From the NCBI GenBank assembly GCA_016185545.1, contig JACPNJ010000003.1, positions 66,567 to 101,596 of the forward strand: a stretch of DNA of 35,030 nucleotides, read 5' to 3'. A model generated the notes under the pieces. The model was not told the DNA's origin. It ran no database searches and was given only the letters and a program-made list of their open reading frames with translations. Numbering within the stretch: the stretch's first letter is position 1; each line of letters begins with the position of its first letter. Shown piece by piece: positions 1,836-24,342 of the stretch. A program made the position numbers and the translations under genes. The DNA is from Candidatus Yanofskyibacteriota bacterium (lineage in GTDB: Bacteria > Patescibacteriota > Minisyncoccia > 2-02-FULL-40-12 > IGHO2-01-FULL-4-A).

Positions 1836-4800
1836 TCAAACCACCGCCACCGAGGCGACCGCATCACCTTGTTCCAGTTTCATAATCCTTACACCTTGCG
1901 TTGCGCGGCCAAGCGCGGATATGCTGGCCAACTCTGTGCGTATTACTACGCCCTTGCGGGAAACGGCAATAATTTCTTTGTCTTCTTCGCCCGTCACATG
2001 AGCGGAAACTATACTGCCTGTTTTGGAAGTAATCTTGGCAGTAAATATTCCTTTGCCGCCGCGCCGCTGAATTTTGTAAGCGGAAAGATCGGTTCTCTTG
2101 CCATAGCCATTGGCCATAACCACAAGCAACTGTAATCCTTTTATGGATTTAGACGGAATCACCTCGGCTCCGACGACTTTTGCTCCAGCATCCACCCCGT
2201 TAGAAGTAGCCGCGCCACGGTCCTCCGGACTCGCGCCTTTGGCGCGAGCGCGACTTCTAACGGGGTCCAAGCGCATGCCTATAACCCCGCCTGCGCCACG
2301 ACCCATCGGACGGACATCCTTTTCTTTAAATCTAACTGCCGCGCCATCTGAAGTAACAAGCATCATTTCGTCCGAACCCGAACTAATTTTAACCCACTTG
2401 AGCTCGTCTTCTTTCTTCAATTTTATCGCAACCATACCGTTTTTTCTAACACTGGAAAATTCCTCTACGGCTACTTTTTTAATAATCCCATTGGCTGTTA
2501 CCATTACGAGATAACCTGTTTTTTCTACTTTTTTGGAAATTGGCACAATAGCAGTAATCCTGTCTTGCGGTGATACCTGCAAGAAATTAACTATCGCTTT
2601 GCCTTTGGCCTGACGTGATGATTCCGGCACTTCATAACCCTTAGTCTGGTAAATCTTGCCGGAATTAGTGAAAAACATCAGGTTATCGTGGGTATTCGCT
2701 ACAAAAAACTGGCTCACCGCATCTTCTTCTTTAGTCGCCATGCCAACCAATCCTTTGCCGCCTCTTTTTTGGGCACGCAAAACGTCCGGCGGCATACGCT
2801 TGATATAGCCGCCATAAGTCATCATGAACAACGACTCCTCTTCCGGAATAAGCTCCTCCTCCCCTATTTCTTTTAAAGCTGTCCTGATGATATTTGTCTG
2901 GCGCGAGTCGGCATATTTGTCTTTGATTTCCTGGAATTCACTTTTAATGACGCCGAGCATTTTTTTGGGATGTGCCAAAAGGTCTTCCAGGTAAGCGATT
3001 ATCTCCTTTTTTTCCTTCAGTTCGTCTTCAATTTTTTTACGTTCCAAACCGGCCAGCTGTTGCAGGCGCATTTCTAAAATTGCCATCGCTTGTCGGTCGG
3101 TAAATTTATATTTTTTTATTAAATTATTAAAAGCATCTTCCTTGGAGGCTGATTTTTTAATCAGCTGGATTATTTCATCAATACGATCTAGGGCTTTTTT
3201 GAGTCCTTCCAGAATATGCGCCCGCTCCTGCGCTTTACGAAGCTCGTACTGACTGCGCCGGCGCACCACAATCCGCCGATGCTCCAAAAATTTTTCCAAA
3301 AGCCCCTTAAGATCCAAAATTTGCGGCTGGATGCCGTCAACCAGCGCCAACGTGTTAACGTGGAATGATTTTTGAAGTTCGGTGTATTTGAAAAGCTGAT
3401 TTAAAACTTTGCGCGGAAAAGCATCCTGCTTAAGGTCAATGGCAATCCGCAGGCCATCCTTGTCGGATTCATCGCGAACATCTTTTATACCGTCAACTTT
3501 TTTCTCTTTCACCAGCTCGGCAATTTTCATAATCAGTTCCGCTTTATTTACCTGATAAGGAATCTCCCTGACAATGATTTGAAATCCACGGCGTTCCGAT
3601 TCAACTATCTCGGTCTTGGCGCGCATCACTATCGGTCCTCTGCCGGTCGCGTAAGCCGCTTGAATGTCTTTCTCATTATAAATCGTCCCGCCGGTTGGAA
3701 AATCTGGGCCTTTTATGAATTGCATCAATTCGTTGACGTCAGAATCTGGACTATCAATAAGATGCATTAAACCATCCAGAACTTCGCCCAGGTTATGCGG
3801 AGGAATGTTTGTGGCCATGCCCACAGCTATGCCCATCGAACCATTAATCAATAAATTCGGGATTCGAGTGGGCAAAACTGTCGGCTCTTGCGTAGAACCG
3901 TCAAAGTTATCACGGAAATCAACTGTTTCTTTTTCTATGTCGGCTAATAATTGTTCCGAGATCGGGGCCAGTTTGGCTTCAGTATACCGATAAGCCGCGG
4001 CGGAATCGCCGTCAACCGAATTATGAACAAAAACACCAGCCGCTAATGCAAAATTATGACTCCCATCGATTGTTAGATCATAAACATCTTCTCGATAATC
4101 TAATTTTTCAATTCTTATAATCTTATGATTTTTATTTATTTCATGGCGAATTAAGTCTGGGTTGTTATTAAAATAATTAGTTAAACCGGTTTCCCACAGC
4201 GGTGCTGCACCATAGGGGTATATTTTGACTCTTGCCTCTTCATAGGTTTCTAAGTTGAGAATCGGGTTTATTTTTAGCGCCTCCTTGCATACATTCAAGA
4301 ATTTTAATTTGCCCGTTTTGTTGGTTATATGATTTTTATTGCCTTTTACAATCTTTTCATGCATAAATTTCCTATATTCCGGATTTTGCCAAAGTTTTTT
4401 TAATGTTTTTGTTGCTCTAATACTAAACTCCGCCCTTCTTTCCGGATGTTTTTCTATAAATTCACTATTTACTCTACTCAAAAACTGGCGCATGTGTACT
4501 CGATAAACTGGATTTTGCCAATTTTTTAGATTTTTTTCAGAAACTCGCTTAGCAATTTTCTGACGGTTCTCAGGCTTAGACCAATAGTTAGCCCTGCCTT
4601 CAGCAAGCTTTCGGTGATATTCTGGATTTTTGTGATTTTGAGATGCCTGTTGGTAATGTATCCGCCAATGCTCACCCCAGTTTAATCTAGTAATATTGTC
4701 CGGATTGTTATTCAGCTTATTAAAATCCACATGATGTCTGACTCGACCAGTATTTTTAAAGTATTTTCTATTTGTTAAGTTATAATTATCGGCTAAATGA

Positions 4801-5522
4801 TGGGCTGGAACCCACTCATCTTTTTTATTCTGATAAATTAAAACGTATCCTTCTCTGTTTAGACGGTCTGTTTTTTCTGAGAATTTTTGATAAAGTGGCA
4901 TAAGCGAATCGGCATGTTTTAAGTGTTGCACTTCTTTGTATTCTCCATTTTTTAACATAAATAGGTGGTTCGGTGTGCATTTTATTTCCTCTCCGTTATC
5001 CAAAGTTAATTTTATTATCTCGGCATTTTTAATGGTTACCCTGGGGTTTTTTATTTCAACAATTGAAATTAAACCCAAGGCATTCACGGTATAAGTATAA
5101 TTTTTTTTGCCGGATTCATACTCTTTCACAAGTTCTTCAAAATTTAAATCTCTGCCATCGGTCAATTTTACTTTAGTATCTTTGGTAAAGCATCCAAAAT
5201 TTCCCTGCCCGTCAACAAGCGGATAGCGCAAAGAAAAATCCTGCGCCATGCGCACCATTGAATCATATGCCGCGGTATCGCCATGAGGATGAAATTGGCC
5301 CAAAACATACCCGACTACTTTAGCCGATTTCTGATATTTGGCGTTGGGCCGTAGACCCATCTCGTGCATGGCATATAAAATCCGCCGATGCACCGGTTTG
5401 AGGCCATCGCGGACGTCAGGCAGGGCGCGCGCAACAATCACGCTCATCGCGTAATCAAGATAAGATTCCTGCATCTCCTGCACTATCTCGCGGGGTTTAA
5501 TTGTGCCAGTTAAAATCGCCAT
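1836..5522 (-). CDS. gyrA: DNA gyrase subunit A, interrupted by an intein
   Basis: Extein: LDYAMSVIVARALPDVRDGLKPVHRRILYAM, GNFG|SVDGDSAAAYRYTEAKL, GyrA C-terminal repeats; 391-aa intein inserted after GNFG. Confidence 0.97.
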   Translation of the reverse strand: MAILTGTIKPREIVQEMQESYLDYAMSVIVARALPDVRDGLKPVHRRILYAMHEMGLRPNAKYQKSAKVVGYVLGQFHPHGDTAAYDSMVRMAQDFSLRYPLVDGQGNFGCFTKDTKVKLTDGRDLNFEELVKEYESGKKNYTYTVNALGLISIVEIKNPRVTIKNAEIIKLTLDNGEEIKCTPNHLFMLKNGEYKEVQHLKHADSLMPLYQKFSEKTDRLNREGYVLIYQNKKDEWVPAHHLADNYNLTNRKYFKNTGRVRHHVDFNKLNNNPDNITRLNWGEHWRIHYQQASQNHKNPEYHRKLAEGRANYWSKPENRQKIAKRVSEKNLKNWQNPVYRVHMRQFLSRVNSEFIEKHPERRAEFSIRATKTLKKLWQNPEYRKFMHEKIVKGNKNHITNKTGKLKFLNVCKEALKINPILNLETYEEARVKIYPYGAAPLWETGLTNYFNNNPDLIRHEINKNHKIIRIEKLDYREDVYDLTIDGSHNFALAAGVFVHNSVDGDSAAAYRYTEAKLAPISEQLLADIEKETVDFRDNFDGSTQEPTVLPTRIPNLLINGSMGIAVGMATNIPPHNLGEVLDGLMHLIDSPDSDVNELMQFIKGPDFPTGGTIYNEKDIQAAYATGRGPIVMRAKTEIVESERRGFQIIVREIPYQVNKAELIMKIAELVKEKKVDGIKDVRDESDKDGLRIAIDLKQDAFPRKVLNQLFKYTELQKSFHVNTLALVDGIQPQILDLKGLLEKFLEHRRIVVRRRSQYELRKAQERAHILEGLKKALDRIDEIIQLIKKSASKEDAFNNLIKKYKFTDRQAMAILEMRLQQLAGLERKKIEDELKEKKEIIAYLEDLLAHPKKMLGVIKSEFQEIKDKYADSRQTNIIRTALKEIGEEELIPEEESLFMMTYGGYIKRMPPDVLRAQKRGGKGLVGMATKEEDAVSQFFVANTHDNLMFFTNSGKIYQTKGYEVPESSRQAKGKAIVNFLQVSPQDRITAIVPISKKVEKTGYLVMVTANGIIKKVAVEEFSSVRKNGMVAIKLKKEDELKWVKISSGSDEMMLVTSDGAAVRFKEKDVRPMGRGAGGVIGMRLDPVRSRARAKGASPEDRGAATSNGVDAGAKVVGAEVIPSKSIKGLQLLVVMANGYGKRTDLSAYKIQRRGGKGIFTAKITSKTGSIVSAHVTGEEDKEIIAVSRKGVVIRTELASISALGRATQGVRIMKLEQGDAVASVAVV
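2195..2265. repeat. 71-bp palindromic element inside gyrA coding sequence
   Basis: 13-bp terminal inverted repeat CCCCGTTAGAAGT...ACTTCTAACGGGG; encodes in-frame PVRSRARAKGASPEDRGAATSNG, absent from a typical GyrA C-terminal domain. Confidence 0.9.
4020..5192 (-). other. GyrA intein (aa 111-501) with HNH homing endonuclease-like core
   Basis: Starts Cys111 (CFTKDTKVKLTDG), block B TPNHLFML (TxxH), C-terminal block VYDLTIDGSHNFALAAGVFVHN followed by Ser+1; HNH-like RHHVDFNKLNNNPDNI and NUMOD-like NPEYHRK/KPENRQK/NPEYRKF repeats. Confidence 0.93.
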
Positions 5523-16896: not shown

Positions 16897-16946
16897 TTTT
16901 CTTGTTTTTTTATGCTTTCTATGTTAATTTGTACACCATGATGTAT

Positions 16947-16970
16947 CCCGTTAGAAGTCGTCCTAACGGG
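16947..16970. repeat. Minimal copy of the CCCGTTAG palindrome upstream of ftsH
   Basis: CCCGTTAGAAGTCGTCCTAACGGG. Confidence 0.8.
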
Positions 16971-19104: not shown

Positions 19105-19213
19105 GGATCCCGAACGAGACCGCGAGGGCTCGTCCCGTACGAAGCAGGACGCGGAACACGTCCGCGGCTTCGTACGGGACTCGCAGCGTGCCTCTGCCTC
19201 GTACGGGATGGAC
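19105..19213. repeat. Nested CCCGTACG palindromic element
   Basis: Outer GGATCCCGAACGAG...CTCGTACGGGATGGAC; inner GTCCCGTACGAAGC...GCTTCGTACGGGAC. Confidence 0.85.
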
Positions 19214-22184: not shown

Positions 22185-23180
22185 ATGGATAAGTCAAGTA
22201 ACAATTACGCGCAGATAAAAATCATATATGAAGACCAGGATTTTTTAATTATTGACAAGCCGTCGGGACTTTTGACGCATCCCGTTAGAAGTCTCGCTCA
22301 CGCCAAAGGCGCGAGTCCGGAGGACCTCGGCGAGGCTACTTCTAACGGGACGCATCCCGTTAGAAGTCTCGCTCGTCCCGTTAGAGAGTCTAGGCAAGAT
22401 AAGAAAAATGTGGTTGACGGCAAGTCTAGGGCGTTCACGCTCTCTAACGGGACGAGTCCGGAGGACCTCGGCGAGGCTACTTCTAACGGGACGCATCCCG
22501 TGAATCGCCAAGATAAAAGTGAAAGTGTGGTCGGCTGGCTTCTTGAAAAATATCCTGAGATAGCCAACGTGCGTGATAAATACGGCACTAGCGTCGGCGA
22601 ATGGACAGACTTAAGGCCCGGCATCGTCCACCGCTTGGACCGTGAAACATCGGGATTATTACTGATAGCCAAAAACCAGCCGGCTTTTGATTATCTCAAA
22701 AAACTTTTCGCGGAAAGAAAAATTAAAAAAACCTACCTCGCGTTGGTTTATGGCCACTTTAAAAACAAAAGTGACACAATAGAAACACCACTTGGCAAAT
22801 TCGGCACCCGCCAAACTACCCGCACGCATGGCAAACACGATCTCAAAGAAAAATTCGCTATAACCAATTATAAGGTCTTGAAAGAATTTATAGATCTGGA
22901 GTTACCGGAAACAAGTTACTCGCTACTAGAAATTAGCCCCATGACCGGCCGTACTCATCAAATCCGTGTCCACCTGCAATCAATCGGTCATCCAGTTGTC
23001 TGCGATCCGCTTTATGCTGGTAAAAAACATACTTGCCCGACAGAGTTAGGACGCCTGTTCCTCCATGCCCAAAAGTTATCTTTTGCGCCATTTTCAGGCA
23101 CGTCAATCTCTGTTGAATCAGATCTGCCGCCTATACTAGAAAATTTTCTGTCCAAGCTAACTGCCATTATTAAAGATTAA
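22185..23180 (+). CDS. RluA/RluD-family pseudouridine synthase with in-frame repeat insertions
   Basis: IDKPSGLLTHP, GIVHRLDRETSGLLLIAK, MTGRTHQIRVHLQSIGHPVVCDPLY; ~70 aa of repeat-derived sequence after THP. Confidence 0.93.
   Translation: MDKSSNNYAQIKIIYEDQDFLIIDKPSGLLTHPVRSLAHAKGASPEDLGEATSNGTHPVRSLARPVRESRQDKKNVVDGKSRAFTLSNGTSPEDLGEATSNGTHPVNRQDKSESVVGWLLEKYPEIANVRDKYGTSVGEWTDLRPGIVHRLDRETSGLLLIAKNQPAFDYLKKLFAERKIKKTYLALVYGHFKNKSDTIETPLGKFGTRQTTRTHGKHDLKEKFAITNYKVLKEFIDLELPETSYSLLEISPMTGRTHQIRVHLQSIGHPVVCDPLYAGKKHTCPTELGRLFLHAQKLSFAPFSGTSISVESDLPPILENFLSKLTAIIKD
22280..22350. repeat. 71-bp CCCGTTAG palindromic element in pseudouridine synthase gene
   Basis: TCCCGTTAGAAGT...ACTTCTAACGGGA. 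Confidence 0.92.
22355..22491. repeat. Second CCCGTTAG element carrying a nested palindrome (22375-22453)
   Basis: Outer CCCGTTAGAAGTCTCGCTC...CGAGTCCGGAGGACCTCGGCGAGGCTACTTCTAACGGG interrupted by GTCCCGTTAGAGAG...CTCTCTAACGGGAC. Confidence 0.9.
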
Positions 23181-24225: not shown

Positions 24226-24342
24226 TCCCGTACGAAGTAGCCCTAACGGGTCAAACGAACGGGATATCAAATATATAATAACAGTAGTTCTGCGCCTGTA
24301 ACTTATATTAATAACTGCAACGCAGCTACTTCATACGGGATG
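24226..24342. repeat. CCCGTACG palindromic element overlapping rplS start
   Basis: GGATCCCGTACGAAGTAGC...GCTACTTCATACGGGATGG; internal CCCTAACGGG and GAACGGGAT remnants. Confidence 0.85.

Follow-up and report, generated by a model that had tools for sequence, protein, structure and literature searches.

In the current work, we describe tiny palindromic mobile elements that insert in frame into essential genes of a Yanofskybacteria-related (Patescibacteria) bacterium, and whose ends match those of a widespread, apparently undescribed transposon of approximately 280 bases, the only gene of which encodes a GIY-YIG nuclease. Our best reading is that the palindromes are non-autonomous derivatives of a new class of minimal GIY-YIG transposon, although catalysis of transposition by the nuclease is inferred from sequence alone. 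The window analyzed is a 35,030-nucleotide stretch of contig JACPNJ010000003.1 (assembly GCA_016185545.1, positions 66,567 to 101,596), which lies on contig 6 (C6) of an 853-kb, 8-contig genome (G000 below); its nearest named relatives in the nuclease scan described below are Candidatus Yanofskybacteria (Patescibacteria), so that affiliation is an inference.

The elements were first recognized in an RluA/RluD-type pseudouridine synthase gene encoding 331 aa (22185-23180, plus strand; Pfam PF00849, E = 4.7e-34), in which a 216-bp insert (22280-22495) lies between the N-terminal motif KPSGLLTHP and the rest of the enzyme, adding 72 codons in frame without a stop. The initial annotation had described two palindromic elements in a row, the second split by another palindrome, with a sequence recurring at each boundary like a target or terminal duplication, and this observation is confirmed. 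Element 1 (22280-22350, plus strand, 71 bp, designated type A) has a terminal inverted repeat (TIR) of TCCCGTTAGAAGT (13/13) and encodes xPVRSLAHAKGASPEDLGEATSNGx in frame, while element 2 (22355-22491, plus strand, 137 bp) is a composite in which the first hairpin tip of a type A element is replaced by a nested 77-bp palindromic element (22376-22452, plus strand; TIR TCCCGTTAGAGAG). All three units carry perfect 13-bp terminal inverted repeats beginning TCCCGTTAGA, and the nested palindrome together with its CTCG/CGAG flanks forms a perfect 17-bp inverted repeat. The recurring sequence (ACGCATCCCGT) was resolved into a true 4-bp target-site duplication (TSD), CGCA (22276-22279, 22351-22354, and 22492-22495, the second copy being shared by elements 1 and 2), followed by TCCCGT; the first two TCCCGT copies are element ends, whereas the third belongs to the host gene and merely resembles one. 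The arrangement is far beyond chance, as the three units fold as single strands at z = -5.8, -8.3, and -4.6 relative to shuffles, and TCCCGTTAGA occurs 49 times in the genome against 3 for the reversed control (copy counts here being derived from searches and individual stretches). One refinement is that the 77-bp palindrome is not a plain insertion in the hairpin: it replaces the 11-nt tip (CGCCAAAGGCG, still present in element 1) instead of making a clean 4-bp duplication, for a net gain of 66 bp.

The initial annotation further proposed that element-in-element insertion implied sequential mobility and suggested a RAYT/Y1-type transposase acting in trans, an interpretation that our results support only in part. 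Sequential mobility is supported by orthologues from the same genus or family, which were examined for the empty and intermediate states that had been named beforehand as a test: three genomes have empty sites (G001, G006, and G002, the last reading …TTTTGACGCA/CCCCGTGAATCGCC…), one genome (G003) has exactly one 71-bp element between two CGCA copies, and the present genome has two plus the nested unit. Element 1 and the G003 element are 70/71 (98.6%) identical while the host genes are only 74-77% identical, and the closer G002 (85%) is empty; vertical inheritance from the G000/G003 ancestor is thus disfavored, and repeated insertion at one hot site, or recent transfer, fits better. The host sequence next to the insertion point (22496-22503, plus strand) reads TCCCGTGA, or TCCCGTTA in G001 and G003, where it is host gene sequence, and it looks like an element end. 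Element-in-element insertion is also real and recurs, as an intergenic nested pair lies in the same window at 19108-19208, where an outer element (TSD TGGA) contains a 47-bp element with its own intact CTCG duplication (19133-19179). However, the nested composite need not have formed in the pseudouridine synthase gene, since the same 137-bp composite (98% identical) sits in the dCTP deaminase gene (C6:42565-42702), the G002 and G003 orthologues of which are empty, indicating that composites move as units.

These elements belong to a genome-wide family with terminal repeats YCCCGTTAGA…TCTAACGGGR and a 4-bp duplication, and 21 of the 58 genomes searched, the present one included, carry recognizable copies. 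Of 24 distinct 71-bp copies, 21 lie in the same phase of an open frame of at least 100 codons, as xPVRSLARAKGASPEDLGEATSNGx. The host genes include SecA in two species at different places, FolD (locus L005, a chimeric copy containing a unit related to the nested type), UvrC, dCTP deaminase, a pyridine-nucleotide oxidoreductase, GH1, and, within the window, gyrase subunit A (1836-5522, minus strand), which carries both an intein (about residues 120-501) and an in-frame type A element (2195-2265, minus strand, 71 bp; TIR CCCCGTTAGAAGT, TSD TCCA). Classes of about 107-125 bp are mostly outside ORFs. The window also contains a 115-bp non-autonomous element (24226-24340; TIR TCCCGTACGAAGTA, TSD TGGA) and a solitary TCCCGTTAGA end followed by a short hairpin (TCCCGTTAGAAGTCGTCCTAACGGG), a probable remnant (16946-16955, plus strand). 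Across all fetched loci, 66 of 103 non-autonomous elements have an exact 4-bp duplication, most commonly TGAA/TTCA, TAAA, and TCAA, while 2 match at 3 bp and 0 at 5 bp, and the displaced controls give 3 and 0. Most of the elements match the right end of a GIY-YIG element at 13-18 of the first 18 bases, with 18 of 18 in 5 cases, two of which are deleted GIY-YIG elements.

The candidate autonomous element was found in the same genome. One 280-bp element (locus L050, 1648-1927; equal to locus L118, 1501-1780) has the ends TCCCGTTAGAGCCA and a single ORF of 88 aa, a GIY-YIG nuclease, and a second, with ends TCCCGTACGAACCA, stands in tandem with a 109-bp non-autonomous element inside the same triplicated TGAA, the same geometry as in the window; close relatives lack the genes neighboring these two elements. 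A protein-similarity scan of 84,980 species genomes gave 433 relatives, of which 80 were kept, in Patescibacteria, Omnitrophota, Planctomycetota, WOR-3, Desulfobacterota, and others, with one element on a contig labeled Woesearchaeota archaeon (locus L165) reflecting either transfer to archaea or mis-binning. By searching for enclosing terminal repeats, 75 of the 80 genes were found to be so bounded, against 2 of 293 shifted windows. In 81 elements of 274-285 bp, positions 1-13 of the two ends pair in 93-100% of cases, with compensatory changes at positions 1, 7, 8, and 11-13, and 43 have an exact 4-bp duplication (TGAA in 32) against 0.3 expected. The last residues of the 80-95-residue protein (…LTG) are encoded by the right end, and in 69/81 the next codon, supplied by the duplicated target, is a stop. 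Of these ORFs, 79/81 are intact and the median dN/dS is about 0.16, so the protein has been kept by selection over long times. Pfam PF01541 matched 17/17 proteins; Y6, Y17, R27, and H31 were invariant, and E64 was conserved at ≥90% in one comparison and invariant in another. The AlphaFold model is confident (pLDDT 94), and the best sequence and fold matches are UPF0213 (BH0048; 1zg2) and the branched-DNA nuclease Slx1 (Slx1-Slx4). No relative of the protein was detected in viral contigs.

A wider family is suggested by what was intended as a control. GIY-YIG genes of the same relatives that are at most ~55% identical were expected to lack terminal repeats, but first 7 of 18 and then 34 of 76 were found to be enclosed by them (at most 1 mismatch in 14; displaced control 2/323, a shuffled control being void because its N spacer matches itself), which widened the claim. 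These genes mostly have other end sequences (TCCCACACATAAC.., CCCCTCACTTGG.., CCAGCCGTAGATTTAA.., and more), with lengths mostly of 274-325 bp and 4-bp duplications in several (TTCA, TTGA, TGGA). Four GIY-YIG genes inside 23S rRNA loci (among them L353, L342, and L359, each with terminal repeats of 14 bp or longer) are all so bounded, in elements of 307-321 bp with terminal-repeat families different from the TCCCGTTAGA group. This bears on a published observation that GIY-YIG ORFs in rRNA insertions of CPR bacteria match no intron and appear not to spread by homing (PMC11270868), for which no mobile-element class appears to have been proposed. The 23S rRNA gene of the present genome itself (C6:19833-25074) spans more than 5 kb, so it is heavily interrupted.

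Taken together, we favor, with reasonable though not full confidence, a model in which the palindromes are non-autonomous, MITE-like members of a transposon family whose autonomous form consists of two 13-bp terminal inverted repeats and one gene, an 80-95-aa GIY-YIG nuclease of the UPF0213/Slx1-like type. The sequences themselves establish precise insertion with a 4-bp duplication (mostly TGAA/TTCA), matching ends on autonomous and non-autonomous forms, compensatory variation between the two ends, long-term selection on the nuclease, empty and intermediate sites, movement of the nested composite as a unit, and repeated insertion abutting an existing copy at the same 4-bp target. By contrast, the mechanism, including cleavage, catalysis of transposition, and mobilization of the short elements in trans, is inferred: the paired ends would form a hairpin or cruciform that the nuclease recognizes, much as Slx1 recognizes branched DNA, and cuts at its base, and a cut staggered by 4 nt at a TGAA-like target would take up the element, with gap filling making the duplication. 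GIY-YIG enzymes are hydrolytic nucleases for which strand transfer is not established, and the enzyme might either join strands itself or only make breaks that host repair uses. In this view, the ends of resident copies, or look-alikes such as TCCCGTTA in this gene, would themselves be favored targets, explaining tandem and nested arrays, and the 71-bp form persists in genes because 71 + 4 = 75 bp is 25 open codons, presumably translated as an extra loop. Type A presence associates with the GIY-YIG subfamily (Fisher p = 0.002), although 10 of 21 type-A-bearing genomes lack a close (≥58% identical) GIY-YIG element, with more distant ones occurring, and copies in genes could also spread by homologous recombination among copies.

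Among the alternatives, the main rival, which we consider unlikely, is that the nuclease is a passenger with another function (for example, homing or repair), and that both the 280-bp and the short elements are moved by an unrelated DDE-type or other transposase acting on TCCCGTTAGA ends. A 4-bp duplication and terminal inverted repeats are typical of DDE elements, not every possible transposase family was covered by our searches, and some genomes have short elements without a close GIY-YIG element. However, no longer element with these ends and another gene was seen, the only ORF of the elements is GIY-YIG rather than a DDE transposase, this ORF fills the element and is under strong purifying selection across phyla, and more divergent GIY-YIG genes carry entirely different terminal repeats, so that gene and repeat ends travel together. 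A second, improbable alternative is local duplication and gene conversion, in which element 2 arose by tandem slippage of element 1 and was later altered by recombination with another copy; the outer parts of the two elements are indeed identical over about 60 bp, and type A copies are numerous enough to recombine. Nevertheless, tandem pairs sharing one 4-bp copy occur in 14 of 384 genomes (control 0), and where both elements could be delimited, the outer copies are mostly identical and the two elements often unrelated (216 + 154, 203 + 140, and 65 + 122 bp), which slippage cannot make, and the same composite occurs alone in dCTP deaminase.

The RAYT/Y1 (REP-associated tyrosine transposase) mobilizer suggested by the initial annotation is similarly improbable and already largely refuted. 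Palindromic single-stranded DNA is the classic Y1 substrate, the genome has four Y1_Tnp genes (loci L238-L241, on contigs 1, 4, and 5), and 31 of the 58 genomes searched have the family. However, these four genes are flanked by their own, different REP-like palindromes (ACTTAGAGG.., TGTACGACATCGC.., TGTACGACATCGCAAGTCGT..), a separate palindrome system in the same genome; Y1 was not detected in four element-rich, 92-100% complete genomes (G009, G015, G033, and G035); and no association with element presence was found (p = 0.42). IS200/REP transposition also gives no target duplication, whereas a 4-bp duplication is the rule here, and the elements contain no Y1 gene. An assembly or binning artefact, conceivable for repeats in an 8-contig assembly, is very unlikely because a single element occurs at the identical base in an independent genome (G003), the composite occurs at a second locus, the reading frame is kept, and the family is present in many independently assembled genomes.

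For the short elements alone, the closest known systems are the Rickettsia palindromic elements (RPEs), which are likewise short palindromes inserted in frame in many unrelated, conserved genes and predicted to be translated as extra peptide (PMC10969869); the present elements are shorter (71 bp for type A) and have a clear 4-bp duplication, conserved 13-bp ends, and a candidate autonomous partner, whereas RPEs are not known to have a mobilizing enzyme. Bacterial MITEs are also non-autonomous, multicopy, TIR-bounded, and TSD-flanked, and share ends with an autonomous element, but here the autonomous partner appears to encode a GIY-YIG nuclease, not a DDE transposase, and is itself only ~280 bp. 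REP/RAYT and IS200/IS605 systems are similarly palindromic and probably structure-recognized, but differ in the points given above. GIY-YIG homing endonucleases (I-TevI) belong to the same nuclease superfamily, and a weak NCBIfam match to group I intron endonuclease was obtained below the cut-off; however, there is no intron, no Rfam match to a ribozyme core or known structured RNA was found in 7 loci, the element is almost all ORF, there is no fixed homing site, and TIRs and a TSD are present. UPF0213 (YhbQ-type) and Slx1 nucleases are known as stand-alone or complexed nucleases, not as transposon proteins.

Mobile DNA is classified by its transposase chemistry (DDE, HUH/Y1, tyrosine, serine, Cas1, and reverse-transcriptase systems), and we know of no prokaryotic DNA transposon whose only protein is a GIY-YIG nuclease; none was found described in our literature searches, although these covered open-licence papers only, so a prior description cannot be excluded. 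If the model is correct, it adds an enzyme class to transposition with a gene of under 100 codons, offers a mobilizer for RPE-like in-frame palindromes, and would show how streamlined genomes keep acquiring new protein segments inside gyrase, SecA, and other essential proteins. In a broader reading, which we consider only somewhat more likely than not, these would be among the smallest autonomous transposons, with ends recognized by structure and with palindromic derivatives that write new in-frame peptides into essential proteins and account for the unexplained GIY-YIG insertions in CPR rRNA genes. Two further features of type A elements were observed: in four loci (L074, L076, L078, and L081), they are inserted at or just after the start codon (an ATGAA-like target), which recreates an ATG on the far side of the element, and in two others (L242 and L243, in genomes G019 and G024), the last hairpin is enlarged by 40-50 nt of further hairpin without TCCCG ends, representing another way in which the elements grow.
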